Shown here piece by piece: positions 912 to 17,501 of a stretch of 37,342 nucleotides of DNA. Under the pieces are notes generated by a model. That model did not search any database. It saw nothing but the letters and a program-made list of their open reading frames with translations, and was not told the origin of the DNA. Source of the stretch: Nitrospirota bacterium (lineage in GTDB: Bacteria; Nitrospirota; Nitrospiria; SBBL01; JAADHI01); NCBI GenBank assembly GCA_029261215.1, contig JAJDBT010000038.1, positions 1 to 37,342 of the forward strand, given 5' to 3'. The position numbers and the translations under genes were made by a program. Positions within the stretch are counted from its first letter, which is position 1, and the number at the start of each line of letters is the position of its first letter.

Positions 912-2057
912 TTGAATTTGAGAGAAAGAAAAAGAGCTGCTTTCAATTCAGTATATGCTGTTTTACTGTCCTTCTTGCTTCTTTTTATTATTAATCCACT
1001 GTCTGCGTTCGCCCAAGAAGATGAAGCCAGCCCAAAAGCTGGGAAACATCTCTATAAGCACTACTGCGCTGTTTGTCATGGTTTTACCGGGAAAGGAAAT
1101 GGGCCCAATGCCGACAACCTTGGGGATGTTCATCCTACAGACTTGACCAGCGAAGCGGTCGACAAACTCGAAGATGAAGAAATTTACGAGGTGATTGAAG
1201 GCGGGGGGGCTGCCATTGATATTTCCTATTACATGCCGCCTTGGGGGTCGATTCTTTCTTCAGAGCAAATCAACGATATCGTTGCCTATATCCGGACCTT
1301 ATCAGAGGCGAATGGCCGTGAAATTTCTGATGTAGTTCGTTTTGCAGATGTAAGAAGGGAAGGGGATGACAAGTGTTTGATGTGTCATTCTCAGGAACAA
1401 AACCTGCTTCGTCCGATTGCGCCAAATATTGGTCACGAAGGAAGTAAATTACGCAAAGAGTGGTTGAGGGGTTTTTTGAAGGAGCCTGAACTTTTGCGTC
1501 CTGTCGGATTCATGCCTTTTAGCAAATCAAAAATGCCGAACTTTTATTTTACAGATGCCGAAGTTGATGCCTTGGTCGCTTATTTGATGACCTTAAAGGA
1601 TGAAGGGATTGACCCTAATATTTTAGCCGGATGGGACGCGGGAGATCCTGCTGAAATAGAAAAAGGCAAAATTTATTTTGTGGAAGATTATGCCTGTGAT
1701 GGGTGTCACAAGCGCTCTTCTGATGGTGATGGAGGGACGGTGGGGCCTGAGCTTTCTTCTGCGGTAGAACGGATTCGTCCAGAATGGATGTTCTATTGGC
1801 TTAAAAATCCACAGCGAATGCGGCCTGATACTCCAATGCCCAATTTTGATATTCCGGATGAGAAGATCCGTTCTCTCTTGTCCTATCTCTATGGTTCTGG
1901 CGGAAATGCGGCTATGGCCAGGGCGGTTTCAATGGATGAGCCTCTGGATGAAAAACAGCTTGAAAAAGGTAAAAAGATTGTAGAGTCTAAAAATTGTCAA
2001 GGTTGTCATTTAATTGATTCATATAATAGTCAGTCAGGCCCTTTGAGGGATGAGTGA
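912..2057 (+). CDS. Exported tetraheme c-type cytochrome, last domain cut short
   Basis: A 381-residue periplasmic electron carrier with a signal peptide (basic n-region, hydrophobic 14-30, AFA cleavage near 34). Four CXXCH sites sit at residues 52-56, 155-159, 262-266 and 362-366. The first three lie in cytochrome c domains of ordinary size, with candidate axial methionines at MPPWG (108), the KMPN stretch (208) and PMPN (309). The fourth domain stops 15 residues after its CXXCH, so it has no room for the helix and methionine ligand expected of this fold. The start is a TTG with GGAGAGG about five bases upstream. It opens the 15-kb respiratory cluster; the next gene begins 53 bases later. 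It probably passes electrons between the bc-type complex or an external donor and the oxidase. The exact partner cannot be read from sequence. Confidence 0.85.
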   Translation: MNLRERKRAAFNSVYAVLLSFLLLFIINPLSAFAQEDEASPKAGKHLYKHYCAVCHGFTGKGNGPNADNLGDVHPTDLTSEAVDKLEDEEIYEVIEGGGAAIDISYYMPPWGSILSSEQINDIVAYIRTLSEANGREISDVVRFADVRREGDDKCLMCHSQEQNLLRPIAPNIGHEGSKLRKEWLRGFLKEPELLRPVGFMPFSKSKMPNFYFTDAEVDALVAYLMTLKDEGIDPNILAGWDAGDPAEIEKGKIYFVEDYACDGCHKRSSDGDGGTVGPELSSAVERIRPEWMFYWLKNPQRMRPDTPMPNFDIPDEKIRSLLSYLYGSGGNAAMARAVSMDEPLDEKQLEKGKKIVESKNCQGCHLIDSYNSQSGPLRDE

Positions 2058-2110
2058 GTTCCGTTTAAAATATAGAGAGCAAGAATAAACAATTAAGAAA
2101 GGGTATTCGC

Positions 2111-2635
2111 ATGCTTCGAAAATTTCCTCTTTTGATCTTGAGTTTAATGTTCATTTCTCTTTTAGCGTTTCCAAGCCTTGGGCTTGCGGCAGAGGATGAT
2201 GACAAGCCTTTAAAACCCGTCCCAAAGGCTTTTGCGGACAAGCATATGCCCAGTGGTTGGTGGACCGATGAGAAGGTGATCGCAGAAGGCAAGAAGATCT
2301 TTGAAACACGAAAACTGGAATATGAGTACAAAAGAAAAAAGAAGGTTGCAAAAGAGGGTTGCGCAACCTGTCACGGTATTAATGCCAAGAAGGATCGTCC
2401 GAAAAAGCGGGGCGCGAAGGATTTTCGCTCATCCAACAGAATGAACCGTCTTTCTGACAGTTATTGGTTTTGGCGAACTTCAGAGGGTGTGAAAAAAACA
2501 AGCATGCCAGCATGGGGAAAAGAGCTTTCTGAAGAGGAAATCTGGAAAGTAATCGCCTATGAACATACCTGGTCACACGGAAACAAGCCTGCGGTTCATG
2601 ATCATAAGGAAATTGAAAACACTGTCGAAAAGTAA
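2111..2635 (+). CDS. Exported monoheme c-type cytochrome
   Basis: A 174-residue protein with a signal peptide (MLRKF start, hydrophobic 6-24, likely cleavage after LGLAA) and a single CATCH heme site at residues 84-88. A likely axial methionine lies in SMPAWGKELS, typical of cytochrome c class I domains. The region 60-83 before the heme is unusually rich in lysine and arginine, and the C-terminus is rich in histidine and glutamate. It sits between the tetraheme cytochrome and the NuoL-like gene, so it is likely an accessory electron carrier of the same respiratory machine. I recognise the cytochrome c fold but no named family. Confidence 0.8.
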   Translation: MLRKFPLLILSLMFISLLAFPSLGLAAEDDDKPLKPVPKAFADKHMPSGWWTDEKVIAEGKKIFETRKLEYEYKRKKKVAKEGCATCHGINAKKDRPKKRGAKDFRSSNRMNRLSDSYWFWRTSEGVKKTSMPAWGKELSEEEIWKVIAYEHTWSHGNKPAVHDHKEIENTVEK

Positions 2636-2715
2636 TTAGTCCGTATGTGTCGCTTCGTATTGTTGCTTAAAAGCCTTTATCTTCATCGGTATTTGAAGGT
2701 GAAGATAGAAAGAGA

Positions 2716-4263
2716 GTGATGGAAGTAGAATCAATAAAACCCCTATTGGCGGTTTTCATTCCTTTGATCGGGTCAGCCTTTATTCTTTTTGCCCGAAAGA
2801 AGCCGAACATTAGGGAGCTGTGTACTCTCACTACGGCGTTTCTTATGTTTTTTGCCGTATTAAGTATGGTGCCGGATGTCCTTGCGGGGAAAACACTGAC
2901 GTACACTCTGCTCGCTTTCTGGCCCTCTGTGCCTATCGGGTTTCGTGTTGACGGTCTGGGTATGATTTTTGGAATCGTTGCTGCGTTTACCTGGATATTG
3001 ACTACCTTTTATTCGATCGGCTACATGCGGAGTTTGAATGAGCACGCGCAAACACGGTTTTATTTTTGTTTTGCCGTGACCTTGTTTGCGACCGAGGGAG
3101 CCGCTTTTTCAAATAACTGGTTTACGCTCTTTCTTTTTTACGAGCTTATTACTCTGTTTACCTACCCTCTCGTTGCACATCATGAGACACAAGAGGCTTG
3201 GGAAAAAGGAAATAAGTACTTGGCTTATCTGCTCGGTACTTCCAAGGTCTTTTTAATCCCTGCGGTGCTCGGAACCTATTTCTATGCGGGGTCTATTGAT
3301 TTTACGTCAAACGGGATTATGCCTCATGACATAGATAAAACTCTGCTGATTGGAATATATGTTTTTTATTTGGCCGGTATTGGTAAGGTGGCGTTCATGC
3401 CGCTTCATTCATGGTTACCGGCTTCCATGATTGCGCCTACCCCTGTGAGTGCGTTGTTACATGCTGTGGCTGTTGTGAATACTGGCGCATTTTGCGTTTT
3501 AAGGGTCATTGTTAATATCTATGGCATTGACTTGATGCAGAAGCTGGATTTAGGTGTTGTTACGGCGATCATTGCGTGTTTTACCATTATCACCGCTTCC
3601 ATTTATGCCATGAAAAGCAATAATCTGAAGGAACGAATTGCGTATTCCACTGTAAGTCAACTTTCTTACATGGTTTTAGGGGGTGCGCTCTTAACGCCGA
3701 CGGGTATTCGTGGTGGCATCATGCACATTGCGATGCATGCCTTTGCCAAGATCACACTTTTTTTCTGTGCGGGTTCGATCTATGTGGCTACGAGAAAATC
3801 AAACGTTTCAGAATTAAATGGCATTGGACGGAAAATGCCCTGGACAATGGCCGCCTTTGCGATCGCGACTTTGAGTATGGTGGGTATTCCTCCAGCGGGG
3901 GGATTCGTAAGTAAATGGTATCTCATGATTGGTTCTGCTGAAGCAGACGAATTTTGGACGCTGATCGTATTGGCAACAAGTGCCTTGTTGAATGCATTTT
4001 ATTTTGTCCCTATCGTGGTCAATGGTTTTTTTCGACCCTCTGATGACGAACCTGTATCAGAAGCGACAGCAGGTTCTGTTTTGATTCCGCAAAGCGTTGG
4101 CGCTGCCGCCGCGTCGAATGTGGCGAACGGTGGTGCCGCAGTTAGCATTCGGGAGCCGTCACTCTTTGTTGTTCTTCCATTGTGCATTACAGCCGTGGTT
4201 TCTATGGTGCTTGGGATGTATCCCAATTTGTTGTTGGAATTCATCGGGACGATGTTTCGATGA
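2716..4263 (+). CDS. NuoL/MrpA-type proton-translocating antiporter-like membrane subunit
   Basis: A 515-residue polytopic membrane protein of the Proton_antipo_M family (complex I NuoL/M/N and Mrp antiporter subunits). Residues used for proton transfer in this family are present: Glu143 in FYELITL (TM5), Lys224 in GIGKVAF (TM7) and Lys345 in HAFAKITLFF. The stretch LPASMIAPTPVSALLHA is closest to the NuoL/MrpA version of that loop. The C-terminal long amphipathic arm of NuoL is absent. The start is GTG at 2716 or the adjacent ATG at 2719; no strong Shine-Dalgarno decides it. It stands next to a second such subunit and an oxidase, with no hydrophilic complex I subunit (NuoB-I) anywhere in the window. 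That suggests an ion pump attached to the oxidase rather than to NADH dehydrogenase; this is inference. Confidence 0.87.
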   Translation: MMEVESIKPLLAVFIPLIGSAFILFARKKPNIRELCTLTTAFLMFFAVLSMVPDVLAGKTLTYTLLAFWPSVPIGFRVDGLGMIFGIVAAFTWILTTFYSIGYMRSLNEHAQTRFYFCFAVTLFATEGAAFSNNWFTLFLFYELITLFTYPLVAHHETQEAWEKGNKYLAYLLGTSKVFLIPAVLGTYFYAGSIDFTSNGIMPHDIDKTLLIGIYVFYLAGIGKVAFMPLHSWLPASMIAPTPVSALLHAVAVVNTGAFCVLRVIVNIYGIDLMQKLDLGVVTAIIACFTIITASIYAMKSNNLKERIAYSTVSQLSYMVLGGALLTPTGIRGGIMHIAMHAFAKITLFFCAGSIYVATRKSNVSELNGIGRKMPWTMAAFAIATLSMVGIPPAGGFVSKWYLMIGSAEADEFWTLIVLATSALLNAFYFVPIVVNGFFRPSDDEPVSEATAGSVLIPQSVGAAAASNVANGGAAVSIREPSLFVVLPLCITAVVSMVLGMYPNLLLEFIGTMFR

Positions 4264-4334
4264 AGCTGGCTGAAGGGGTGTTTATGTCTGTTGATCTCCA
4301 GATGATTGCAATGTTTATTACGAGGAGCGCATAA

Positions 4335-6137
4335 GTGGAGACTTCAATTCCCCTATGGGTAGTTTTGGTTCCTATCTTGGGGGCCTTTGCTTTACTGATT
4401 AAAAAAGAATCAGATCAATTTCGAAATGCCATTGTGATCGGAAGCAGCACGCTTTCTTTTATCCTTTTGCTGAGTCTGTACAGTTCGGTCATGAAAGGCA
4501 GTGCGCATTACGCCATTTCCTGGTTGCCAGGTTTTGAGATTACTTTTAATGTAGATGCTTCTGGCCTGCTAGTTGCTCTTGTGACAGCCTTCCTTTGGAT
4601 TCTTTGTTCAGTTTACAGCGTTACCTATATGACGCATGAAAAAAAACGACTTCGATATGATTTCTTTTCCCTGTTAACCTTGGCGACAAATCTGGGTGTC
4701 TTGGTCGCCGGTGATTTTTTTACGCTTTTCATCTTTTTTGAAGGCTTGCTGATTTTTCCTTACCCCTTAATTGCACATAAGGAAGATGCTCCAGCAGTAA
4801 AAGGTGCAAATCTCTATCTTTATGTGGGTGTTGCAACCAGTCTGCTGTTGTTATCAGGGATGGTACTCTTAAAATCGTATTCAGGGTCGCTCGCTATTCA
4901 ATCTATTTCTCCTGAAGTTGCAGCCTCTATGAGCACCGCGATTAAGTATCAAATCGCAATACTCATGATCGTCGGTTTTGGAGGGAAGGCTGGATTGTTT
5001 TTTGAACATTTCTGGTTGCCTGAAGCCCATCCCGTTGCCCCCACCCCAGCCTCTGCACTGCTTTCGGCCGCGATGATTAAAGCTGGAGCCTATGGGATTT
5101 TTAGAGTGGTCAATCTGTTGTTCGTCCCTCAGGGTGGATCCATGACGGGAGACTGGTTGACCTTGAGCAATATTGGTTATTGGACGATCATCATTGGAAG
5201 CATTACGATGTTTTTTGCGGTGATTTCGGCCTTGATTGCAACCAATTCAAAGCGGATGCTGGCTTTTCATAGCATCAGTCAAATGGGTTATATTGTCATG
5301 GGAATTGGATGTGCGGCTTATTTGGGGCAGCACGGGGCCGTAGGTGCTGCAGGCGCTCTATATCATATCGTTAATCACGCACTTTTTAAGGCCGCTCTCT
5401 TTTTGGGTGTCGGGGCTGTTTATTTTAGGACAAATGAGCTGGACATGTACAAGCTTGGTGGTCTAATGAAAAATATGCCTGTGACTGCGATTTGTCTGTT
5501 CATTGCAGTTTGTGGCATTTCCGGTGTCCCTTTTTTCAATGGCTTTGCCAGTAAAACGATTCTGCATCATGCCATCATTGAGTCCTATGAGCATGGCCAT
5601 GATATGACGCTGTGGGTTGTGGAGAAAATATTTATTGTCACGGCGGCGGGTACTTTTGCCTCTAACTTTAAGCTGTTCTATTTAATGTTTAGAGGGAATC
5701 GACCAAAACAATATGACGATGTGGCACCGGCACCGCTTCCCATGAAAATTGGAATGATTGGTTTCTCCGTTGCGATTCTCTTTCTGGGTTTATTTCCAAA
5801 CTGGCTGCTTGAAACTGCGATTGGTCCTGCATTGGCTCCTCTTGGTTTTGACTCTGGGGCAGATGGATACCGCCTTATCTATGATGTGCAAACACAAATT
5901 TCAGGTTTGGCGATTCTGTACCCGGGCACAGAAAGCTTTTCGATGGTCTTGCATAACCTCTTTTCCGGTGGGATCGCCTTGGTTCTCGGAGCGGGGCTTC
6001 TCTATGGTGGTTTGAAATATCATTGGTTTAACTTCAGGGTACCAACATTTTTTACATTTGATTTTTATGCGACTAAAATACTCAGACGATTATTGAATCC
6101 TTGGTTCCTTGCTGATGGTAGTCGTAAGCGCGTATGA
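4335..6137 (+). CDS. NuoM/MrpD-type proton-translocating antiporter-like membrane subunit
   Basis: A 600-residue polytopic protein of the same Proton_antipo_M family as its upstream neighbour but a different subtype. Glu136 (IFFEGLL), Lys218 (FGGKAGLFF), Lys249 (AMIKAGAYG) and the lysine of HALFKAALF mark the usual proton path. The Lys249 motif is found in NuoM/MrpD-like members and is replaced by VVNTGAF in the neighbour, so the two are not recent duplicates. A C-terminal extension beyond residue 500 adds at least one further membrane span (around 545-567). The start is GTG with GGAG eight bases before it. A 71-base gap separates it from the upstream gene. It probably couples electron flow through the adjacent bd-like oxidase to proton or sodium movement. 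Confidence 0.87.
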   Translation: METSIPLWVVLVPILGAFALLIKKESDQFRNAIVIGSSTLSFILLLSLYSSVMKGSAHYAISWLPGFEITFNVDASGLLVALVTAFLWILCSVYSVTYMTHEKKRLRYDFFSLLTLATNLGVLVAGDFFTLFIFFEGLLIFPYPLIAHKEDAPAVKGANLYLYVGVATSLLLLSGMVLLKSYSGSLAIQSISPEVAASMSTAIKYQIAILMIVGFGGKAGLFFEHFWLPEAHPVAPTPASALLSAAMIKAGAYGIFRVVNLLFVPQGGSMTGDWLTLSNIGYWTIIIGSITMFFAVISALIATNSKRMLAFHSISQMGYIVMGIGCAAYLGQHGAVGAAGALYHIVNHALFKAALFLGVGAVYFRTNELDMYKLGGLMKNMPVTAICLFIAVCGISGVPFFNGFASKTILHHAIIESYEHGHDMTLWVVEKIFIVTAAGTFASNFKLFYLMFRGNRPKQYDDVAPAPLPMKIGMIGFSVAILFLGLFPNWLLETAIGPALAPLGFDSGADGYRLIYDVQTQISGLAILYPGTESFSMVLHNLFSGGIALVLGAGLLYGGLKYHWFNFRVPTFFTFDFYATKILRRLLNPWFLADGSRKRV

Positions 6138-6171
6138 GATTTATAGGTGTAGTCATGAAAGGGGGAATAAA

Positions 6172-8571
6172 ATGACTTTAAAGAAAATAACAACACATCC
6201 CAGGGCCTGGGGCGTATTCCTCTTCGCATTGCTCGTGTTCCTTTCTTCTCCTTCTGTTTATGCTGAAGTTTCCGAGGCGATCAGTTATCGTGATATGAGC
6301 AGTATGAGTAGCCGGAACCTTGTCTGGTTGCTCGCTCAGGTACACATTTTGTTCGGCGCGTTTTTGTTGGGTGTGCCGATGTTTATTATCGCCATTGAGA
6401 TTATGGGGGTTAAAACCGGGGAAGTTCGTTATGACAAATTAGCCCACGAATTTACAGATTTGATTGTCGCGGTTTTTGCGACAACGGCTCTGCTCGGTAT
6501 TTTCTTCTTGTTCTCTCTCCTGGTTTTTTATCCTGAATTAATGCGGGTTATGGCGGATATTTTCAATCCGACTTACTACATCTATCTATCCCTATTCCTG
6601 GCAGAGACGGGTTGTGTCTACATTTATTGGTCTAAATGGGAGGAGTGGCAGAACAGAAAAGCGCTGCACATATTCTGGGGCATGATGCTGAATATTGCTG
6701 GCCTGGCCCTCGTCTTTTTACCCAGTGCCTATCTCGCTTTTCAGGCCAGTCCTGTGGTTTTGAGTCCTGATTTGGGTCCATGGGAAAAGGCCTGGACGGC
6801 GATTAATAACCCTACGTGGATTCCGGTTGTCATCCATCGCGTCGTTGGAAATCTGATTCTCGGTGGTTTTGTGTGTGGGGCCTATGCGGGCGTCGCCTAT
6901 CTTGGTGCGAAAACACAAGAGGAAAAGGAACATTACGACTGGATGGGCTATGTCGGTAATTTTATCGGCGTTTTTGGTCTACTCCCGATGCCTTTTGCGG
7001 GTTATTACCTTATGCGGGAAGTCTATCAGTATAACCAGCAGATGGGAATTACCTTAATGGGGGGTATTCTCTCATGGTTATTTATTCTTCAAGCGGTTCT
7101 TATTGGTGTCCTTTTTGTGGGGTCCAATTATTATTTCTGGCAGGGGATTGCCTATAGAACAGGTTCTGGACCCAAATATAAAAAACCAATTATTTTTATG
7201 TTGATTGCCTTGGTCGGTGCTTTTTCTGTCTGGCTGACTCCTCATTCTCTTGTGGCCAGTGTTTCTGAAGCCAGAGCAATGGGTGGTTCTCATCATCCAC
7301 TGCTAGGTGTTTTTGGGGTGATGTCGGCTAAGTTGACTGTGGTCAACCTGATGATTGTGACCACATTTATCTGTTTCATTCTTTATTGGAGGGCAGATAA
7401 AGAGATTACAGTGAAGTGGGGAAAGGCTGCGAATATTTTTACCGTCGCACTGATTGTTGTGGCCGTTATTTTTATTATCTGGTTGGGTGTTTATGGGTAT
7501 TTTGTGCCTTCGGTTTATCGTGTAAATGTCCTTTCTGTGGTTCAAGTTTTGGCTGTACTTTTTGTGATGTTTACGATTACGCCTTTAACGGCACTTTCTC
7601 TTCGGTCTGCGAAACTCACCCATAAGATGAAGTGGGGCGTAATGCCTGCACGTTCACAGTATGCCCTCGTGATTAATGCGGTTTTTGTTGTGCTTACAAT
7701 GGCATTGATGGGTTACGCTCGTTCTGCTTCCCGGGTTCACTGGCATATCTATGGGGTTTTGGAAGATACGTCTACTCATGCGTATACCCCGACTTTGGGG
7801 GTTGCGTCCTTTCTGTTCGTATTAAGTACTGCAATTTTTTGTGTAATGGTAGGGATTGTTTTTTGGACCTCACATACAATTCGGCATAATCGTTTTTCCA
7901 CACGATATTTTTATCTTGCCCCTGTTTTTATGTGGTTTTGCGATCTTTTTGAAAAAGACGAAAAAAAACGTCTTCCAAAAGAGGTGGGTGGTCCCCGTTT
8001 TGTGATGTTGAAGGTAACGACCGTTGTGAGTGTCTTTTTGCTGACCTATACCTATGTCGGTTATCAGGTTCCCCAAAAAGTGGGTATGCCGCCAGAAAAA
8101 AAGGAATTGGATCTCACTATGGTCAAAACCCAGGACGATATGGTTCAAATGGGTCAGGACATTTTTTACAGTAAAGGGCAATGCGCACTTTGTCACAGTA
8201 TTGGAGAAGGGCATGGGCGTTGTCCTAATCTGGCTGGTGTAGGAGAGCGGCTTACACGAGAATTTATATACGAGGCCCTGACGAATCCCAAGGCGTATGT
8301 GAAAATGGATTACGATCCTGCGATGCCTGTGAACTATTCTGCTGAAATGCCAGCGATTGATAAACCTCCTATTGGTCTTTCTGAAGTGGAGTTAATGACA
8401 ATCATCGCTTTTGTCCAAAGTAATGGGGGAAAGGTGACTGTGACGCCGGATGAACTGAGGGCAATTTCTGAAAAATCGAAAGAAACTCCAGTGCCGGAAC
8501 CTGTTGAACACAATAACGAAGAAAAACCAAAGGCTCCCGAAGAAATCGCAATGAGTTTGAGCGGATCGTAG
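6172..8571 (+). CDS. Cytochrome bd-like oxidase subunit I fused to a C-terminal cytochrome c domain
   Basis: A 799-residue protein likely to be the terminal oxidase of the cluster. It has a cleavable-looking signal segment (to SVYA at 31), then a CydA-like membrane domain with about a dozen or more spans. His58 in AQVHILFG and His222 in VIHRVVGN align with the CydA heme ligands. The helix carrying the CydA GRQPW signature is recognisable (W524, then IYGVL), but the signature reads SRVHW, and the glutamate two residues before it in CydA is serine here. A cytochrome c domain follows (CALCH at 671-675, MPV or MPA as possible ligand), ending in a Pro/Glu-rich tail. No CydB gene is present. Loss of the quinol-site motif plus a fused cytochrome c suggests oxidation of cytochrome c rather than quinol; this is inference. 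The in-frame ATG at 6109 is rejected because the ATG at 6172 has a GGGGG ribosome site and gives a proper signal sequence. Confidence 0.85.
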   Translation: MTLKKITTHPRAWGVFLFALLVFLSSPSVYAEVSEAISYRDMSSMSSRNLVWLLAQVHILFGAFLLGVPMFIIAIEIMGVKTGEVRYDKLAHEFTDLIVAVFATTALLGIFFLFSLLVFYPELMRVMADIFNPTYYIYLSLFLAETGCVYIYWSKWEEWQNRKALHIFWGMMLNIAGLALVFLPSAYLAFQASPVVLSPDLGPWEKAWTAINNPTWIPVVIHRVVGNLILGGFVCGAYAGVAYLGAKTQEEKEHYDWMGYVGNFIGVFGLLPMPFAGYYLMREVYQYNQQMGITLMGGILSWLFILQAVLIGVLFVGSNYYFWQGIAYRTGSGPKYKKPIIFMLIALVGAFSVWLTPHSLVASVSEARAMGGSHHPLLGVFGVMSAKLTVVNLMIVTTFICFILYWRADKEITVKWGKAANIFTVALIVVAVIFIIWLGVYGYFVPSVYRVNVLSVVQVLAVLFVMFTITPLTALSLRSAKLTHKMKWGVMPARSQYALVINAVFVVLTMALMGYARSASRVHWHIYGVLEDTSTHAYTPTLGVASFLFVLSTAIFCVMVGIVFWTSHTIRHNRFSTRYFYLAPVFMWFCDLFEKDEKKRLPKEVGGPRFVMLKVTTVVSVFLLTYTYVGYQVPQKVGMPPEKKELDLTMVKTQDDMVQMGQDIFYSKGQCALCHSIGEGHGRCPNLAGVGERLTREFIYEALTNPKAYVKMDYDPAMPVNYSAEMPAIDKPPIGLSEVELMTIIAFVQSNGGKVTVTPDELRAISEKSKETPVPEPVEHNNEEKPKAPEEIAMSLSGS

Positions 8572-8683
8572 TTTGGTATTTTAGCGTGCAATCAAAAGGT
8601 ATTGATATTCCTGTCCTGGGTTTTTGAGATGGGCAGCAAATAATTGGACTTAATGTTTTAGTTATCGGTTTTCAGGGGAGTAG

Positions 8684-9535
8684 GTGAAAAAAAGATTTTT
8701 GATTGAAAAGTCAGTTGTGGTGAAAGCCATTCCGCTATTATTGCTCTTTGTATTCACATTAGCAGGATGTGAGAATGAACATGTTGCCAAAGGCCATAAG
8801 TTATTTAGTCGCTACTGTTCATCGTGTCATGGTGAGCAGGGCGATGGGAATGGATATAATGCGGGCAACCTAGACCCGCGGCCTCGTGATTTGACCGACA
8901 GCGAAGAAGAATACATGGCCAAATTGAGCAATGATGAAATATTTGAAGTTTTGAAAGTGGGAGGATATGGTGTAGATCTCGCTGGAACAATGCCTGTTTG
9001 GGGGAAAGTTTTTTCTGAGGAACAGCTTTGGTCCTTAGTCGCATACATCCGTACACTTCATCCCAATGAGGCAGAAGAAATTGTGTTTACGAAACCCGGA
9101 ACAAAGGATCCGGTATTCGATAAAACAAAACCTCAGTATTCCAGGGTGAGGGAAAAGGTATTTGATGATCTGATGGCCTCATTGGTTCCGGATGAAGACG
9201 CTTTTGATGAGCAAGTGGCAATTGGTGAAGAGGTATTTGAGGAAAGAGGATGCATTGGGTGTCATATTGTGAATGGCAAAGGCGGAACACTCGGTCCTGA
9301 TTTGTCCAAAGCGGGTTCGATGCTACAAACTCAGTTTATTTTTAGGTGGGTTGTCAATCCACAGGGGTTTAAGGTAAAAACGAGAATGCCTAATTTGGAT
9401 TTACCTAACGAGGACGCGCTGGCTGTTTCGTTGTATGTCAGCACGCTCAAGGGCGGGAGTTCTGTCATTCAGGGCAGTCAAGATTCATCCATGGATGAAG
9501 AAGAGGTGGATGCTGAAGATGAGGAGGAACTGTAG
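8684..9535 (+). CDS. Diheme c-type cytochrome lipoprotein
   Basis: A 283-residue lipoprotein: the hydrophobic segment 15-28 ends in LAGC, with Cys29 the likely acylation site. There are two cytochrome c domains: CSSCH at 45-49 with Met103 (GTMPVWG), and CIGCH at 190-194 with Met235 (TRMPNLD). The first domain closely resembles the first domain of the cytochrome at 912, and the second resembles that protein's third. The tail is very acidic (Asp/Glu-rich over the last 18 residues). GTG start with AGGGGAG upstream. It lies directly after the oxidase and only two bases before the next cytochrome gene, so it may be the electron-entry subunit of the oxidase. Confidence 0.85.
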   Translation: MKKRFLIEKSVVVKAIPLLLLFVFTLAGCENEHVAKGHKLFSRYCSSCHGEQGDGNGYNAGNLDPRPRDLTDSEEEYMAKLSNDEIFEVLKVGGYGVDLAGTMPVWGKVFSEEQLWSLVAYIRTLHPNEAEEIVFTKPGTKDPVFDKTKPQYSRVREKVFDDLMASLVPDEDAFDEQVAIGEEVFEERGCIGCHIVNGKGGTLGPDLSKAGSMLQTQFIFRWVVNPQGFKVKTRMPNLDLPNEDALAVSLYVSTLKGGSSVIQGSQDSSMDEEEVDAEDEEEL

Positions 9536-9537
9536 CC

Positions 9538-10287
9538 GTGAAGTTACCTTTGATTGCTAAGGCCTTTCTGCTGGAAATTGGATTCTATTTGTTTCTTAAG
9601 TTAGGTATGCCTCTTATTACGAGTCCACTGCCTTCTAGTGTCATTTTCATGTATATGGCCTTGGTGACCATTTCTATTCTGTTGTACGTTTCTATTTTTG
9701 AAGATGACTTTAATCAATTCTACGTTCCGATTGTTGATTTTATCAGAGGAGATGAGAATGAGGGGATTGGGAGAAAAATGAGTCGGACCGCTCTCTTTAT
9801 CTTGATTCCCCTCTTTGTCGGTTTTCGCTCTTATCAAAGTGTAAAACCCAACTTCAATCCGCCATTCCCAAACCGAGTGATTCATCCTGCGCCCCCTGGA
9901 TCTGCAGCCGGCTTTATGAATCCTTATGAGGGTGAGGTTGCACATCGGGAGGAGTACATACAGGAAGGGCGAGATATTTTTTACCAAAACTGTGTGTTCT
10001 GCCATGGGGATAAATTAGACGGAAACGGTCTTTTTGCGGATGCATTGAATGTTAAACCTGCGAACTTTGCCGATCCGACAACGATATCGATGTTGCAGGA
10101 ATCATTCGTTTTTTGGCGTGTAAAAACAGGAGGCATCGGTTTACCTGAAGAATCAACCCCATGGGATTCGGCAATGCCGAGGTGGGAGTTGATTTTGTCG
10201 GAAGAAGAGCGTTGGAAGGCGATCATGTTTTTATATGATTATACCGGCTATAAACCAAGGACTTGGGAATTAGATGCAGGTGAATAA
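9538..10287 (+). CDS. Membrane-anchored monoheme c-type cytochrome
   Basis: A 249-residue protein with hydrophobic spans near 7-26, 34-54 and 84-97 followed by a periplasmic cytochrome c domain (CVFCH at 152-156; methionine in the SAMPRWE stretch). The segment before the heme is proline-rich. GTG start with GAGGAGG ten bases upstream, inside the end of the preceding gene. Its 3' end overlaps the next gene by 14 bases, a sign of translational coupling. Role inferred from position: a membrane-bound electron carrier of the oxidase assembly. No specific named family recognised. Confidence 0.8.
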   Translation: MKLPLIAKAFLLEIGFYLFLKLGMPLITSPLPSSVIFMYMALVTISILLYVSIFEDDFNQFYVPIVDFIRGDENEGIGRKMSRTALFILIPLFVGFRSYQSVKPNFNPPFPNRVIHPAPPGSAAGFMNPYEGEVAHREEYIQEGRDIFYQNCVFCHGDKLDGNGLFADALNVKPANFADPTTISMLQESFVFWRVKTGGIGLPEESTPWDSAMPRWELILSEEERWKAIMFLYDYTGYKPRTWELDAGE

Positions 10288-11854
10288 ACTGGAAAACAAA
10301 AATACAAAAAAAATCATATTCGGATTGTTTGGCATATTCCTACTTATCTCTGGCTTAGGTCCAAATCTTTATGCAGATGAGACGGAAGAGGCTTCCCCTC
10401 AAAAACAGGAAGACAACCTTCCTTCGGATGATCTGGCTGCTGGAAAAATAATTTATGAAAAGCGATGTATCTCATGTCATGGGAATGAAGGCGATGGCGA
10501 TGGGCCAGCTGCAGATCGATTTGAGCCGAAACCACGTAGTTTTAAGAAGGCGGAGTTTAAATATCGCAGTACCCCGAGAAATGAATTGCCTACCGACGAA
10601 GATTTGTTCAGAGCCGTAACAAATGGACTTCCTGGAACCGGGATGCCTGATTGGGCCGATGTTTTAAACGAAAAGAAGCGTAGACAAGTCATAAAATACA
10701 TTAAAACATTTTCTGATAAATGGGAAAAACAAAAAGAAAAACCACAGGTGATCACAGTAGGGGAGCCTATCCCCACGAGTGCCGAAAGTATTGAGCGTGG
10801 CCAGAAGCAATTTACGGCCTTGGGTTGCACGCTGTGTCATGGCACCGAAGGCCGAGGGGATGGCCCAACTTCATTGGTCTTAAGAAATCACCGTGGAGAT
10901 CCCGTTTTTCCTAGAAACCTCAATAAGAATTGGCTTTTTCGAGGTGGCGGTGACGCAAAGGATATTTATAAAAGGGTGAACACGGGCTTAAACGGTACGC
11001 CAATGCCATCCTTTGCAGATAAACTTGATAATGAAAAAAGTTGGGATTTAGCCAACTATGTTCGTTCGCTCTCGCCCCCCGTAAAGCCTGAAAGAGGCTC
11101 TCTTATCAAACCTCTTAAGATTGAAGAGGCAGTGCCTACAGACCCTGAGGATCCTCTTTGGGCAGAAGCGGCTTCCAGCTGGTTCCCCATGATGGGACAG
11201 ATTTCATTTGAAGAACGCTTGTTCACGCCAACGGTAACTGATATCACGGTGCAATCTATTTATAACGAAAAAGAAATTGGGTTTAAGCTCATTTGGGATG
11301 ACCGCAGTCATAGCAAGGCCAGTAAACCCAGCGCCAAGATGAAAACATATACAGATCAGGTCGCGATACAATTTCCTGAAAAACTGCAACCCGGTGGAGT
11401 TAAGAAGCCCTATTTTATTATGGGCGACGAAAAGTTAGGTGTGAATCTATGGAATTGGCGCTCTGAAGACAAGCACGTATTTGAGACAAACGCCAATGGT
11501 ATTTTAAATGGAGAAATAGAACAGGAAAAAAGTGACCTGAGTGGAGAGGGTATTTTCAAGAATGGCCAGTATCAAGTTGTGATCAAACGGTCGTTGCAGA
11601 CTGCTGATAAGGAAAAAGATATTCAGTTTGAAGTGGGTGAATTTTATCCCATAGCATTTTTTGCCATGGATGGAACGAATGGAGAAGTGGGAACAAAGAG
11701 GTCAATTACACCCTGGTATTTTGTCTTAATGGAACCTGAAACACCGAAGAGTGTTTATATTTTTCCACCGATTGTTGTTCTTCTTGTCTTTGGAATGGAG
11801 TTTGTTTTAGTGAAAATTTTAAAAAAGAATAGAAAGGCATCAGGTTCATCTTGA
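10274..11854 (+). CDS. Diheme cytochrome c with an ethylbenzene-dehydrogenase-type heme-b domain
   Basis: A 526-residue membrane-anchored protein. After an N-terminal hydrophobic segment (13-29) come two cytochrome c domains (CISCH 65-69 with GMPDW; CTLCH 185-189 with PMPSF). Residues about 290-490 then look like the heme-b-binding domain of ethylbenzene dehydrogenase gamma subunit and related DMSO-reductase-family partners: DPLWAEA opening, IGFKLIWDD strand, and PYFIMGD with Met383 as a candidate heme ligand. A single membrane span (about 497-517) and a basic tail end the protein. In known enzymes this domain passes electrons to or from a molybdenum enzyme, yet no molybdenum subunit is present here. 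The start overlaps the previous gene by 14 bases; GTG at 10280 is an alternative start. Confidence 0.8.
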   Translation: MQVNKLENKNTKKIIFGLFGIFLLISGLGPNLYADETEEASPQKQEDNLPSDDLAAGKIIYEKRCISCHGNEGDGDGPAADRFEPKPRSFKKAEFKYRSTPRNELPTDEDLFRAVTNGLPGTGMPDWADVLNEKKRRQVIKYIKTFSDKWEKQKEKPQVITVGEPIPTSAESIERGQKQFTALGCTLCHGTEGRGDGPTSLVLRNHRGDPVFPRNLNKNWLFRGGGDAKDIYKRVNTGLNGTPMPSFADKLDNEKSWDLANYVRSLSPPVKPERGSLIKPLKIEEAVPTDPEDPLWAEAASSWFPMMGQISFEERLFTPTVTDITVQSIYNEKEIGFKLIWDDRSHSKASKPSAKMKTYTDQVAIQFPEKLQPGGVKKPYFIMGDEKLGVNLWNWRSEDKHVFETNANGILNGEIEQEKSDLSGEGIFKNGQYQVVIKRSLQTADKEKDIQFEVGEFYPIAFFAMDGTNGEVGTKRSITPWYFVLMEPETPKSVYIFPPIVVLLVFGMEFVLVKILKKNRKASGSS

Positions 11855-11966
11855 TTCTGGGGGTATATTCAGTTAGAATTTGCCACTTTATTCCTTAAAT
11901 TAAGTAAATGGTGAGGCGAGATAATCAAGTATTAATTATCTTTTAAAGTATATAAATAAAAGGCGA

Positions 11967-12461
11967 ATGATTCCCATTATCTTTATGCATGGGGTTATCG
12001 CACTTTACTCAAGCCCAGTTTTTGCGACTCATGAAGCTGATCACCGATATATCATTTCTGGTCAGGTAAGGGATGCTTCTGGAAACCCTCAGAAAGAAGT
12101 TCTGGTTTCATTAGAACATAAAGGAGGGGAAAAGAAGGACGTAAAAACTGACCATTTAGGTCGTTATGAAGTTCTATTTCACCTCCATAATGAAAATCTG
12201 GGTGAAAAAATAATTGTTTCATATGGAGATATTCAACGAAAAATAACAATTACGTTTGATCCGGAAGATAAATTCACTAATCGGGGAGATGTTGTAGATT
12301 TTGGTGCCCCAAGCAATGAGCCAACTCTCCCTTGGGGAATTGTCGGAATGGGCTCACTGCTGGGCAGCTTCGTCTTACTTTATTTTTTTAAAAAGAGTAA
12401 GAAATCAAAAGGACGCAGTAAAAAGCAGTCGTCTACTAAAAAGAAGAGGAAAAAGGTTTAG
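11967..12461 (+). CDS. Small exported, membrane-anchored protein with a carboxypeptidase-regulatory-like beta-sandwich
   Basis: A 164-residue protein with an N-terminal export signal (ending SSPVFA), a beta-sandwich region (ISGQVRDASGNPQKEVLVSL, then DHLGRYEV) of the carboxypeptidase D regulatory-domain type, a C-terminal membrane span (about 121-142) and a tail of almost only Lys, Arg and Ser. No heme or metal motif is seen. The ATG at 11967 gives a signal peptide without the usual positive n-region. The frame stays open upstream to an ATT at 11931 that would add YLLKYINKRR, so the true start may be upstream. It lies between the heme-b cytochrome and the Rieske gene and could be an assembly or scaffold subunit; function unknown. 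Confidence 0.65.
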   Translation: MIPIIFMHGVIALYSSPVFATHEADHRYIISGQVRDASGNPQKEVLVSLEHKGGEKKDVKTDHLGRYEVLFHLHNENLGEKIIVSYGDIQRKITITFDPEDKFTNRGDVVDFGAPSNEPTLPWGIVGMGSLLGSFVLLYFFKKSKKSKGRSKKQSSTKKKRKKV

Positions 12462-12499
12462 CATGTTGCCTATCAGGGACATTGGGGAGCGTTTAGGTC

Positions 12500-13057
12500 A
12501 TGGCAGATAATAAAGACAATAGTCTGGACGAGGATGTTAGTCGGAGACGGTTTTTTACACTCATGGGGCTTGGGGTCGGTTGGGGTGGACTTTTGACGGC
12601 CCTTGGTGGGGTTGGTGTTGGCGCTGCACGGTATATGTTGCCCTCTGTTCTTTATGAACCACCCACCGTTTTTAAAATTGGAAAACCTGCTGACTACGGA
12701 ATCGGCGTAGATACAAAATTAAAAAAAGAGCGGCAAATTTGGGTTGTTCGTAACGAACGTGGTCTATATGTCATGGTTGCTATTTGCCGCCATTTAGGCT
12801 GTACGCCAAATTTCTTTCAAGACCAGAGTCTCTTCCGATGTCCGTGTCATGGGAGCATTTATGATACGTATGGGAATGTTTTGGGTGGCCCAGCGCCCCG
12901 AACCTTATGGCGGGCTGCAGTGTCACTGGATCCCATTGATGGTCAGATTGTTGTGAGCTTTAATACAAGGCAGGATCCGGATCCGAAAGGGACACCAGAG
13001 GGCCTCATGGTGGATGAAATGGAACGAGAAGTTGAGCCTTACTTCTTAAAGGTCTAG
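12500..13057 (+). CDS. Rieske iron-sulfur protein of a cytochrome bc-type complex
   Basis: A 185-residue Rieske protein. The twin-arginine-like SRRRFF at residues 14-19 precedes one membrane anchor (about 20-43), as usual for Tat-dependent Rieske proteins. The [2Fe-2S] site is complete: CRHLGC at 96-101 and CPCHG at 114-118, with Cys96/His98/Cys114/His117 as ligands and Cys101/Cys116 for the disulfide. It takes one electron from quinol at the Qo site and delivers it to a cytochrome c. It is followed after 22 bases by cytochrome b, then subunit IV, the standard order for a split b6f-like complex. Confidence 0.93.
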
Positions 13058-13079
13058 ATGTGGAGGAGATAGAGCAAGT

Positions 13080-13850
13080 ATGTTGAAATTACTCCAGAAA
13101 ATTCGTTCGATTGTGAACAAAACCCAGGTTTTTAAGTCGATTTTCAGGCATGGGTATCCGGATACGGATGGCAATCGCGCCTTGGTGATGTTCAGTAACG
13201 TTATCCTTCATTTACACCCGGTTCGTGTTCGAAGGGGAGCGCTTAAAATAAAATACACGTGGTGTCTTGGTGGCTTAACTTTTTTGTTTTTTATTTTGCT
13301 TGCAATCACAGGTGTTATTTTAATGTTTTATTATGTGCCTGATACAAGACGTGCATACAATGATATTCGTGACTTGGGGACTGTAATCTACTTTGGAAGC
13401 CTTTTTAGGGCTGTTCATCGTTGGTCTGCCCACGCAATGGTTTTTTCGGTGTGGATGCATATGACACGTGTTTTTATGACCGGATCGTATAAACCGCCTA
13501 GGGAGTTTAACTGGGTTGTTGGTGTGATTTTATTGGTCACGACGCTTGTTTTGAGTTGGACCGGCTATTTGCTTCCTTGGGATCAGCTCGCTCTTTGGGC
13601 CGTAACAGTCGGAAGCAAAATGGCAGAAGCCACGCCATTTATTGGTGCCGCGGGGCCGTTTGGTCCAGAACTAGGTCGAAACTCCGGGAATGATATGGCT
13701 TTTGCGCTTTTAGGGGGAACTGTTGTTGGGCAAAGTGCTTTGCTCCGTTTTTATGTCCTTCATTGTCTTGCACTCCCTTTAATTACGGCCTTATTTATCG
13801 CGGTCCATTTTTGGAGAATTCGAAAAGATGGTTTTTCCGGACCACTTTAA
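13080..13850 (+). CDS. Cytochrome b6-type subunit with heme c-i cysteine
   Basis: A 256-residue diheme cytochrome b, the N-terminal half of a split cytochrome b. Heme ligands are His113/His127 and His228/His243; the HX13H and HX14H spacing is that of cytochrome b6. The sequence YTWCLGG puts Cys62 just ahead of the first core helix, matching the CLGG of cytochrome b6, where the cysteine covalently binds the extra heme c-i (c-n). The N-terminus has about 30 extra polar residues, and no SRP-type signal is needed. Start supported by GGAGGAG about twelve bases upstream. Works with the Rieske protein and subunit IV to oxidise quinol and pump protons by the Q cycle. Confidence 0.93.
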
Positions 13851-13875
13851 TCGCTTGTTTAAGTAGAGGAAACAT

Positions 13876-14730
13876 ATGTCAGAAAAAATCTCTGAAGATT
13901 CAAATGCTTTGTCCAAGCAGAGTAAGCTGGCCCAACTCATCAAGAAAACGGCCTCTGAAAAAATAGGCCCGGAAAACACCGTATTGGTTTGGCCGAACCT
14001 GGTTTACCTTGAATTGATCGCGATCATGGTTTCGGTTGCTGTCATCTTGTTTCTTTCGTTGGTTTCACCCGCCCCCCTGGAAGAATTGGCCAGTGCGGAC
14101 ACAACGCCAAACCCGACAAAGGCCCCGTGGTATTTTTTAGGATTGCAGGAATTATTGGTCTATTTTGATCCTTGGTTGGCTGGCATGGTTCTTCCGACGT
14201 TTATCATTATTGGGTTAGTGCTGATTCCTTACTTGGATCCCAGTCCGCTTGGAAAAGGATATTACACCTTTAAAGAACGGAAGTTTTCGATGTTGGGGTT
14301 TGGTTTTGGATTATCACTATGGTGGGTTCTAATCTTGATTGGTGTGTTTTTTAGAGGTTTAGATTGGTCTTGGTATTGGCCATGGGATGATCCTCATTTT
14401 CACCAACCTGCGGGTGCTGTAAAACTCATGGATTTAGAAATAATCCTTCAAAGCACCCTGGGCTTGAGTGAAGCGCCCTTGACGACACTGGGGAGATATG
14501 CGATTACCAAAGCAAATGTCTTAACTTGGGCCCTGTTCTTAGGGTTTTATGGTGTAGGTTTTACGGTTCCATTTTTATTTTTCAGGGATTTTTATCGGAA
14601 ACTCGGTTTTGTTCGTTATAACCTCACCATGTTCTTTTTCATTTCAATGATGGGTGTCCCGATGAAGATTTTTTTGAGATTGTTGGCTGATGTCAAGTAT
14701 GTCCTTGTGACGCCCTGGTTTAAATTCTAA
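13876..14730 (+). CDS. Cytochrome b subunit IV-like protein (C-terminal half of cytochrome b)
   Basis: A 284-residue membrane protein matching subunit IV of b6f-like complexes, but longer than the roughly 160 residues of the cyanobacterial form. The Qo-site motif normally written PEWY is APWY here (Ala83-Pro84-Trp85-Tyr86), in TKAPWYFLGLQELL; variants at this position are known from menaquinone- and low-potential-quinone organisms. After three core helices (about 44-64, 103-121 and 140-158), two further hydrophobic spans near 218-235 and 246-268 form an extra C-terminal module. A 35-residue polar N-terminus precedes the first helix. AGAGG lies before the ATG. It forms the Qo site together with the cytochrome b6 encoded 25 bases upstream. 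Confidence 0.88.
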   Translation: MSEKISEDSNALSKQSKLAQLIKKTASEKIGPENTVLVWPNLVYLELIAIMVSVAVILFLSLVSPAPLEELASADTTPNPTKAPWYFLGLQELLVYFDPWLAGMVLPTFIIIGLVLIPYLDPSPLGKGYYTFKERKFSMLGFGFGLSLWWVLILIGVFFRGLDWSWYWPWDDPHFHQPAGAVKLMDLEIILQSTLGLSEAPLTTLGRYAITKANVLTWALFLGFYGVGFTVPFLFFRDFYRKLGFVRYNLTMFFFISMMGVPMKIFLRLLADVKYVLVTPWFKF

Positions 14731-14753
14731 TCGTAACGAAAGAGGTGTTTTGA

Positions 14754-14894
14754 ATGGATGATATCTGGGCATATCCTTATCGGCTGGGAATTGGACTCTT
14801 TTTTCTTGTAGGAACGCTTGTATTTATGGGTGCGTTTATTGGGATCGCGGTTTGGCTCGAAAAAGCGCTGAAAGAAGACGACACTAAAAAGTAG
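14754..14894 (+). CDS. 46-residue single-span membrane protein
   Basis: A short gene: ATG at 14754, TAG at 14892-14894, preceded by AGAGGTG about eight bases before the start. The product begins MDDIWAYPYRLG, has one strongly hydrophobic span (about residues 11-34) and ends in a charged tail EDDTKK. It sits 23 bases after subunit IV and 60 bases before the tetraheme cytochrome, all on one strand. Size and position resemble the small single-helix subunits (PetG/L/M/N-like or CcoQ/CydX-like) that stabilise respiratory complexes; I see no sequence identity to any named one. The reading frame, ribosome site and membrane span are seen directly; the role is inferred. Confidence 0.7.
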   Translation: MDDIWAYPYRLGIGLFFLVGTLVFMGAFIGIAVWLEKALKEDDTKK

Positions 14895-14954
14895 CAGAAT
14901 TATTTTCGATGCGACAGCTGATGATGTTGTGGATATAGGGGGAAGAGTCACCGT

Positions 14955-15878
14955 ATGGTTAAGCATATAGTCTTTGGTATTTCAGGCTTTTTAATAGTTC
15001 TTCAACTTGGAATTTTTGTTTATCGTGAAGAAACAGCTGAATGGAAAGGGTACCAAGCAACCTATTATAAAAAGCTTGCTGAAATGACGGGTGACCCCAA
15101 TATTTTAAAAAACCCGATTAAAGTGACTCAGATTTGGGACAAAAATTTAAACCGGGCAGATCGATGTACAACCTGTCATGCGGGTATTGATAATCCTGCT
15201 TTTGAAAACGAACCACAACCTTATACGACCCACCCAAACTTTAAAGATGAGGGATATATTTCCAAGCATGCTTTTGAAAAGTTTGGCTGTACCATTTGTC
15301 ACGAAGGCAACGGTCAGGCGGTGACTGTTGCCGCAACGCACGGTGTGGTCAAACATCTCGATCATCAGCCTTTATCGACACCCTATGTTCAGGCGTCTTG
15401 CACCAAGTGTCACTACGAACTTCTTGTGAGGGAGGTTAACTGGCCTGAGGCAGATGTTTTAATGAAAGGAAAGCAGTTGGCTTTTGATCTGGGTTGTGGC
15501 GCTTGCCATGCCATTCGTCAATTTGGAACCAATTCTCCCTTGGCTCCGGAGCTTTCAAATATGGGCAGTAAGACTGAACTGGCGTTTACACTTGTCCATG
15601 ATTTTTCACATATAGAATCCGAGGACCACATTACCCGTGTCTGGGAATATGAACATTTTCTTGATCCTCAAAAGATTGTGCCTGGAAACCCGGATGCGGC
15701 CGATGAAAAAGAAAGAAATTCCCCCACGATTATGCCAAATTATGGTTTGACTGAAGAAGAGGCTGTGGCGCTTACTGTATTTGTGCTCTCTTTAAGGGAT
15801 CCTGAAATTGAAAAAATTCCTAAGCAATATTTCCCCAAAATAGCCAATCATGACGGGTTTCTTCAGTATCGAAAGTAA
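14955..15878 (+). CDS. Membrane-anchored tetraheme c-type cytochrome
   Basis: A 307-residue protein with an uncleaved-looking N-terminal anchor (residues 4-22) and four CXXCH sites: CTTCH 71-75, CTICH 112-116, CTKCH 149-153 and CGACH 181-185. The first three are closely spaced in a histidine-rich region, as in multiheme cytochromes with bis-histidine ligation, while the last begins a more ordinary cytochrome c domain with a likely methionine in IMPNYGL. It closes the respiratory cluster, just after the bc-type subunits. The likely role is the cytochrome c1/f replacement that takes electrons from the Rieske protein; that is inference from its place in the operon. Confidence 0.83.
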   Translation: MVKHIVFGISGFLIVLQLGIFVYREETAEWKGYQATYYKKLAEMTGDPNILKNPIKVTQIWDKNLNRADRCTTCHAGIDNPAFENEPQPYTTHPNFKDEGYISKHAFEKFGCTICHEGNGQAVTVAATHGVVKHLDHQPLSTPYVQASCTKCHYELLVREVNWPEADVLMKGKQLAFDLGCGACHAIRQFGTNSPLAPELSNMGSKTELAFTLVHDFSHIESEDHITRVWEYEHFLDPQKIVPGNPDAADEKERNSPTIMPNYGLTEEEAVALTVFVLSLRDPEIEKIPKQYFPKIANHDGFLQYRK

Positions 15879-16135
15879 AAAATAATAACGAGGCTGGAGT
15901 TCACCAAACTTTTTCCCTCTTATCCATTTTTTTATTTTTACCTGTTTTTCTGGAAAACAACATCGCCAGGTGAAGTTTAATGTTAAAAAAAGGGGCAATT
16001 CCCCTTGACAATTTGAAAGATTACTATATATTTACTTCCGTTTTTACATGCCACTTCAGACGGGAATTTATTCTAAAGGCATTGGGTTAATCCTTGGGTG
16101 GTTTTCGCCCTTATTTTAGTGATAGAGACAATATA
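15879..16135. other. Intergenic region between respiratory and polyamine clusters
   Basis: This gap is AT-rich and contains the only clear sigma-70-like promoter I see in the window (16005-16032). A 6-bp hairpin (AAGGGG 15990-15995, CCCCTT 16001-16006) overlaps its -35 box. Read on the minus strand this hairpin is followed by seven Ts, like a leftward terminator, although no minus-strand gene lies to the right. No convincing rightward terminator for the respiratory cluster was found. Confidence 0.5.
16005..16032 (+). promoter_or_regulatory. Sigma-70-like promoter for the polyamine genes
   Basis: TTGACA at 16005-16010 is a perfect -35 box. TATATT at 16027-16032 is a good -10 box, separated by 16 bases. 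Transcription would start near 16040, about 95 bases before the AdoMet decarboxylase start at 16136. The surrounding AT-rich sequence supports the call. Confidence 0.6.
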
Positions 16136-16552
16136 GTGGAGACATTAGGAACACATATTCTTCTTGAATTAGAAGATTGTAAGTATGAGATTTTGGACGA
16201 TTTAAAGGGGGTTGAGGAAGCTTTGCTTGAAGCGGCGAGGAGAGCAAAAGCGACGATCATTGAGAGCCGCTTTCACCAGTTTAGTCCTTTTGGAATAAGC
16301 GGTGTTGTTGTCATTGCAGAGTCTCATCTTACGATTCATACTTGGCCGGAACACGGTTATGCCGCAGTGGATATTTTTACCTGTGGAAATGTGTTGCAGC
16401 CAGGCGTGGCAACCGATTTTCTCATAAAGATATTTGAATCAAAAAATCCATCTATTGTCGAGTTAAAGAGAGGTCTCTTTTTGTCGCGAGAAAGAACGAC
16501 GACAGCAAATATTTCTAATGACGAGGGGCCTCTCGAACATGTCTTCGGATAA
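16136..16552 (+). CDS. speH: S-adenosylmethionine decarboxylase proenzyme (bacterial SpeH type)
   Basis: A 138-residue pyruvoyl enzyme that makes decarboxylated AdoMet, the aminopropyl donor for polyamine synthesis. The self-cleavage site AESHLTIHTWPE places the pyruvoyl-forming serine at residue 64 after Glu63, matching the short class found in Bacillus and Thermotoga. The motif AVDIFTCG is also conserved. I chose the GTG at 16136 because the protein then begins METLG-like, as in the family; a TTG at 16094 would add 14 unconserved residues. Its end overlaps the spermidine synthase start by 14 bases. Confidence 0.93.
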   Translation: METLGTHILLELEDCKYEILDDLKGVEEALLEAARRAKATIIESRFHQFSPFGISGVVVIAESHLTIHTWPEHGYAAVDIFTCGNVLQPGVATDFLIKIFESKNPSIVELKRGLFLSRERTTTANISNDEGPLEHVFG

Positions 16553-17459: not shown

Positions 17460-17501
17460 TTTCACAATGATCTTTCCATTGTCTTCCCAGAACTTATATC
17501 C

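Follow-up and report, generated by a model that had tools for sequence, protein, structure and literature searches.

The oxidases of the cytochrome bd family known as CydAB conserve energy without pumping (PMC8951039). In Candidatus (Ca.) Manganitrophaceae, a gene set named TO_2 has been described, which combines a bd-like oxidase, two MrpD-like ion-pumping subunits, and periplasm-accessible and membrane-embedded cytochrome b, and a complex I with five pump subunits has been described as unique to this family (Yu et al., 2022; PMC9040806). In Nitrospira, a region consisting of CIII_1, bd-like_1, bd-like_2 and alt_NxrC_1 has been described, and a supercomplex of bc complex and oxidase has been proposed for this region of Nitrospira moscoviensis (PMC6606698). 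The present report concerns a related cluster in a stretch of 37,342 nucleotides from a Nitrospirota bacterium (GCA_029261215.1, contig JAJDBT010000038.1, positions 1 to 37,342 of the forward strand), which is called the window. An original prediction, made from the letters alone, had read the genes at 912-15878 as a single supercomplex joining a bc complex, two proton-channel subunits and a bd-like oxidase.

All components of TO_2 are present in this cluster and genomes of a second family of the same order (f2) carry the same set, so that it is filed here as a TO_2 variant. The explanation favoured, which is given about an even chance of being correct, is that a cytochrome c-fed oxidase of bd fold is coupled to a pair of ion pumps to form a core encoded by genes C, D and E, with the bc module as a separable partner. 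That this O2 reductase replaces the quinone module of complex I and drives MrpD-type subunits directly, the second pump position being exchangeable, is proposed more tentatively. The suggestion of the original prediction that the full set might be undescribed does not hold, since the basic gene combination is already known as TO_2. What appear to be new are the exchanged second pump, the separability of C–D–E from the bc genes, and the occurrence of such a set in Nitrospiraceae. None of the three is mentioned in the literature searched, which left out the 2020 Nature paper and Murali 2021, and the text of Yu et al. (2022; PMC9040806) speaks neither of the stand-alone loci described below nor of the Nitrospiraceae occurrence. 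The genes of the cluster, identified by Pfam, NCBIfam and PDB sequence searches, are as follows.

A, 912..2057, + strand: periplasmic c-type cytochrome with four CXXCH motifs and an N-terminal signal or anchor.
B, 2111..2635, + strand: monohaem cytochrome c, also found in one stand-alone C-D'-E locus (L070).
C, 2716..4263, + strand: MrpD1-type pump subunit of 515 amino acids.
D, 4335..6137, + strand: second pump subunit of 600 amino acids, outside the MrpD2 clade.
E, 6172..8571, + strand: subunit of a bd-family O2 reductase with a CydA fold, a C-terminal transmembrane helix and one cytochrome c domain (CXXCH).
F, 8684..9535, + strand: dihaem c-type cytochrome.
G, 9538..10287, + strand: protein with two transmembrane helices and one cytochrome c domain.
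H, 10274..11854, + strand: alt-NxrC-like protein with two cytochrome c domains, an EB_dh domain (haem b domain of the NXR/EBDH gamma type) and a C-terminal transmembrane helix.
I, 11967..12461, + strand: small membrane protein with a carboxypeptidase-regulatory-like domain scoring under the Pfam cut-off.
J, 12500..13057, + strand: Rieske 2Fe-2S protein with the motif CRHLGC...CPCHGS.
K, 13080..13850, + strand: b6-type N-terminal half of cytochrome b, in which the four haem b histidines and the b6 haem c_n cysteine align.
L, 13876..14730, + strand: subunit-IV-like C-terminal half of cytochrome b, in which the PEWY motif of the Qo site is replaced by APWY.
M, 14955..15878, + strand: tetrahaem c-type cytochrome, the equivalent of cytochrome c1 by its position.

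The number of open reading frames (ORFs) of plausible length is thus thirteen and not fourteen as had been predicted, while the rest of the predicted layout stands: all lie on the same strand with gaps of -29 to 224 bases, and the CXXCH motifs add up to 15 (4+1+1+2+1+2+4). Domain searches likewise bear out the predicted modules (two Proton_antipo_M proteins, a CydA-type protein, a Rieske protein and a split b6-type cytochrome b) and detect in the cluster no gene for the Q-module of complex I (NuoB/C/D/H), a heme-copper oxidase or CydB, in agreement with the prediction, nor a set of MrpA-G subunits. A Rieske motif, two pairs of haem b histidines and a subunit-IV-like C-half are all found in J–L. 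The longest ORF of E begins at TTG 6109, and ATG 6172, preceded by the ribosome-binding site AAAGGGGG, is probably its true start; the overlap of D and E is then only apparent, because this start removes it.

Compared with TO_2 as described, the likeness extends to the bd-like protein (E, with its CydA fold and Cyt_bd_oxida_I match of 62.3 bits), the two MrpD-like pumps (C and D), H with its EB_dh haem b domain, and the b6/subunit-IV-like cytochrome b of K and L. The difference lies in the second pump, because D of the window is not MrpD2 but another protein of the antiporter family, accompanied by an accelerated C. A tree built from 50 pump proteins places C from all TO_2 loci with MrpD1 of the rhizobial green complex I (MrpD1-MrpD2-NuoM-NuoN) and of the window genome's own complex I, and it places the second pump of most relatives, called D', with MrpD2 (support 100/100). 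D of the window and of the relatives G253 and G291 does not belong to the MrpD2 clade and sits near MrpD1 at the end of a long branch (90/97), and a further relative, G403, carries a D of the window type with 78% identity. In the table of identities, the D rows of MrpD2-type loci set D against C instead of D' and were disregarded. It appears from these sequences that the MrpD2 slot has been filled by a different antiporter-type protein in the window genome and these three relatives. C matches NCBIfam NF006236 with 667.5 bits (cut-off 663); the best NCBIfam model for D is hydrogenase-4 HyfB, with a score far under the cut-off. The conserved residues of both pumps are intact (E143, K224, K345 and K400 in C; E136, K218, K249, K352 and K407 in D), and position 218 of D is lysine, whereas MrpD2-type proteins have asparagine or serine there. 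D' of TO_2 loci is 506-526 amino acids long versus 586-622 for MrpD2 of complex I, which is consistent with D' having lost the greater part of the lateral helix that, at the C-terminus, extends across the other pumps of complex I. In a relative of genus g1 (L039:1601-3130), the second pump of the TO_2 locus groups with MrpD2 of the window genome's complex I (100/100), which suggests a further replacement in the same slot. Among 396 Nitrospirota genomes, D-like proteins were matched in three (the window genome, G253 and G291), none was found at 1e-70 in 294 genomes of the phylum of Ca. Anammoxibacter, and matches on plasmids reach only about 30% identity; these searches scored a few top candidates per genome and G403 fell outside the sample, so that absence is weak evidence here.

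C and D, as members of the Mrp/NuoL family in a host clade that is marine according to the literature, might be an ordinary cation/proton antiporter, co-expressed with the oxidase for the balance of pH or Na+ and free of any mechanical coupling to it. This is considered quite unlikely, because MrpA, B, C, E, F and G are all absent from the cluster, a separate MrpA/MrpD-type pair is encoded on contig C22 of the window genome, C-D'-E is also present in f2 genomes, which look like freshwater Manganitrophus, and the orthologues of C are found in complex I rather than in Mrp. C is orthologous to MrpD1 of the green complex I (about 50% identity) and D' of the relatives to its MrpD2; the cluster differs from that complex in that NuoA-D, H, J and K are missing and the pump pair lies beside an oxidase instead of a quinone module.

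E can be assigned to the cytochrome bd superfamily on its modelled CydA fold and its haem-ligand histidines. The structure model has a CydA fold over residues 55-592, with a predicted local distance difference test score (pLDDT) of about 90 in most transmembrane helices and poor values in the cytochrome c tail, and it superposes on Geobacillus CydA with Z 33.7 and a root-mean-square deviation of 3.2 over 354 aligned residues. When residues are counted from the longer ORF (TTG 6109), H79 and H243 are the equivalents of H19 and H186 of Escherichia coli CydA and are invariant in 40 homologues, in which E166, the equivalent of the proton-channel residue E107, is nearly invariant. The second half of E aligns globally with E. 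coli CydA too weakly for ligands to be called, and no matching Q-loop with the conserved lysine and glutamate was seen in E, where the alignment past helix 5 is weak. E resembles CydAB in its modelled fold and its haem ligands, while it differs in lacking CydB and a recognisable Q-loop, in its fused cytochrome c domain and in its adjacent pump genes. An identity of 53-60% with E-type proteins of Nitrospirales suggests that E is a member of the OR-N family. E-type proteins occur in 84 of the 198 Nitrospirota genomes sampled; a PHROGs search with E gave no match.

The full set A–M is kept in several independent genomes of f1 and f2, so that the cluster is neither a matter of chance nor an assembly artefact. 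In f2 the order is A-B-C-D'-E-G-H-F-I-J-K-L-M, the same 13 genes with F alone moved, and in all complete f1 and f2 clusters seen the bc genes share the cluster with C-D/D'-E. The histories of the parts are not the same. The tree of the Rieske protein and cytochrome b follows the genera (window, G403, G313 and G402 at 98/97; G139 and G253 at 100/99), while the trees of C (window, G403, G253 and G291 at 100/100) and of E (100/99) follow the type of the second pump. In approximately unbiased (AU) tests, grouping by D type is rejected for Rieske plus cytochrome b (p-AU 1.4e-11) and grouping by genus is rejected for C (p-AU 2e-8) and E (p-AU 1.2e-47), p-values that are indicative, since earlier trees were already known when the clades were named. 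The branch leading to the D-type clade, its stem, measures 0.47 in C versus 0.11 in E, and a long stem in C is expected if C adapted to a new partner D. Second, stand-alone C-D'-E loci exist in G139 (contig C55) and G291 (contig C31), without the bc genes, the NxrC-like gene and most cytochrome genes, and each of these genomes holds a full cluster besides. CBS-domain proteins are encoded upstream of C in both (L052:14709-15862 and L070:8128-8586), and a possible role for them is regulation of the pump-oxidase. From this distribution, C–D–E appears to behave as a cassette separable from the bc genes. The trees are explained equally well by transfer and by differential loss of old paralogous loci, and C–D–E is a unit under either.

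These observations divide the supercomplex of the original prediction into a part that is supported and a part that is not. Conserved gene order, the stand-alone C-D'-E loci and a common phylogeny all support a link between pumps and oxidase. Obligate membership of the bc module is not supported, since its genes group by genus whereas C and E group by the type of pump, and two C-D'-E loci have no bc genes nearby. An obligate supercomplex in which quinol oxidation by bc itself drives C and D would agree with thirteen adjacent and co-oriented genes kept as a full set in f1 and f2, and with the supercomplex proposed for N. moscoviensis. It is nevertheless very unlikely in view of the conflicting phylogenies, the occurrence of C-D'-E without bc, and the Nitrospira clusters, where E is paired with a distant bc and no pumps. 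In these Nitrospira loci, the neighbours of an E-type bd-like protein are a Rieske/cytochrome b pair and genes resembling G and H (alt-NxrC); the loci differ from the present cluster in that they have a second CydA-like protein, their bc pair is distant (about 40%), and pumps are absent from all but G165. In Ca. Anammoxibacter (L049 and L050), K- and L-like bc genes (53-54% and 38-40%) are followed by two E-G-H sets without pumps.

Among the short loci of Nitrospirales examined, pumps adjoin E only in G165, a Nitrospiraceae genome that also carries an NxrA-sized protein. The order there is B-CydA'-J-K-E-C-D'-G-H-F (L055 1416-15883), with the pump pair between E and G, so that TO_2-like pump-oxidase sets are not confined to Manganitrophaceae.

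In the working scheme proposed for the favoured explanation, the electrons would come from a periplasmic donor of high potential, for which Mn(II) oxidation is a candidate, enter the c-haem proteins A, B, F, G and H and pass through the cytochrome c domain of E to its bd-type haems, where O2 would be reduced to water. The energy of this reaction would move ions through the antiporter-type subunits C and D, and the bc module J–M would trade electrons with the pool of quinones, most likely by running in reverse and reducing quinone for the fixation of CO2; as a b6-type module with an APWY motif at the Qo site, it could run in either direction. Coupling of O2 reduction to ion movement is the simplest account of an oxidase fixed to two intact pump subunits.

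The opposite direction has been proposed for TO_2 (Yu et al., 2022; PMC9040806): part of the periplasmic electrons would reduce O2 at E and part would be driven up to quinone by way of the membrane cytochrome b, at the expense of an inflow of ions through C and D. This published hypothesis fits a donor of about +466 mV and the need of reduced quinone for CO2 fixation, and the co-clustering of bc genes in the complete f1 and f2 clusters agrees with it. The stand-alone C-D'-E loci without a nearby cytochrome b and the separate history of bc make it unlikely, although bc could act from elsewhere in the stand-alone cases because both genomes also hold the full cluster. Forward pumping is tentatively preferred here to dissipation that pushes electrons into quinone.

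Several points weigh against forward coupling in a C–D–E machine, besides the indicative nature of the p-values. We infer the physical complex, the coupling, the direction and the substrate from the genes. The cluster has none of the adaptors (NuoH/J/K/A) by which complex I joins its pumps to redox modules, and E has neither CydB nor a Nitrospira-type CydA' partner. Members of the order outside f1 and f2 (G183, G239, G409 and G410) have E-type genes with no detectable adjacent pumps, several of the contigs being short; pumping is not essential to E, because many relatives have E without adjacent pumps. The original prediction had named scattering of the genes in relatives as evidence against itself, and this is found in part, for E without adjacent pumps. 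Finally, that C and E are inherited together could in part be due to the joint movement of adjacent genes.

The host belongs very probably to the order Ca. Troglogloeales, in a marine Manganitrophaceae-like clade related to the manganese-oxidising bacteria. Its genome (3.37 Mb, 97% complete) comes from an order with 18 genomes in the collection analysed and encodes on other contigs a complex I whose five pump subunits are MrpD1, MrpD2, two NuoM and NuoN. At L061 (contig C18) 7116-13826 the genome encodes a complex I that has four pumps and includes an MrpD pair, and the separate MrpA/MrpD-type pair is at L062 (contig C22) 9948-14546. Searches of the genome found no COX1 (heme-copper oxidase), no PF02322 match for CydB (the control was positive in 10 genomes), no NxrA-sized molybdopterin protein, and no 16S match. 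The marine genus has likewise been reported to lack a heme-copper oxidase, and Manganitrophus-related metagenome-assembled genomes of the Oslofjord tunnel study represent a marine clade without ammonia monooxygenase (AMO) and nitrite oxidoreductase (NXR). This study is presumably the source of the OFTM genomes, and L041, from Nitrospirota OFTM308, gives identical hits to G253 of the window's family and is the same genome. Among the genomes of family f2 are some of 4.3 and 5.2 Mb, and COX1 is present in G181, the member of this family that was tested; freshwater Ca. Manganitrophus has been reported to have a cbb3 oxidase. The Nitrospira-type second CydA (CydA'; 74-75% identity among the Nitrospiraceae tested) was not found in the window genome or the tested members of the order, where the best matches (35-45%) belong to E- or TO_1-type proteins. 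Contig C106 of the window genome encodes two further bd-like proteins, and as COX1 and CydB are both missing from the genome, these and E would be its only recognised candidates for O2 reductase.

A promoter scan of the window is at the level of chance (29 matches versus 26.3 expected), and terminator-like sites (28 versus 18.2 expected) are mostly intragenic and uninformative. The cluster is followed at 16094-19001 by polyamine genes (AdoMet decarboxylase, spermidine synthase and Orn/Lys/Arg decarboxylase), which lie beside it in L041 and L051 as well. That they have a promoter of their own is suggested by a strong sigma-70-like match at 16005-16032. Further downstream, two large genes on the minus strand (22974-29590), for a UvrD-type helicase with a PD-(D/E)XK nuclease and for a second PD-(D/E)XK protein, resemble an AddAB-type pair.

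Should C–D–E prove to be a single machine, an oxidase of the bd type, a class in which pumping is not normally found, would have gained true ion pumping, and a pump of the antiporter type would draw its energy from the reduction of O2 instead of from the chemistry of quinone or ferredoxin. The C–D–E unit narrows the target for purification from thirteen genes to three, and the natural swap of the second pump, together with C and apart from bc, offers a direct route to testing subunit contacts. Such a machine, if real, would help to explain how these bacteria save energy for CO2 fixation on a donor as poor as Mn(II).

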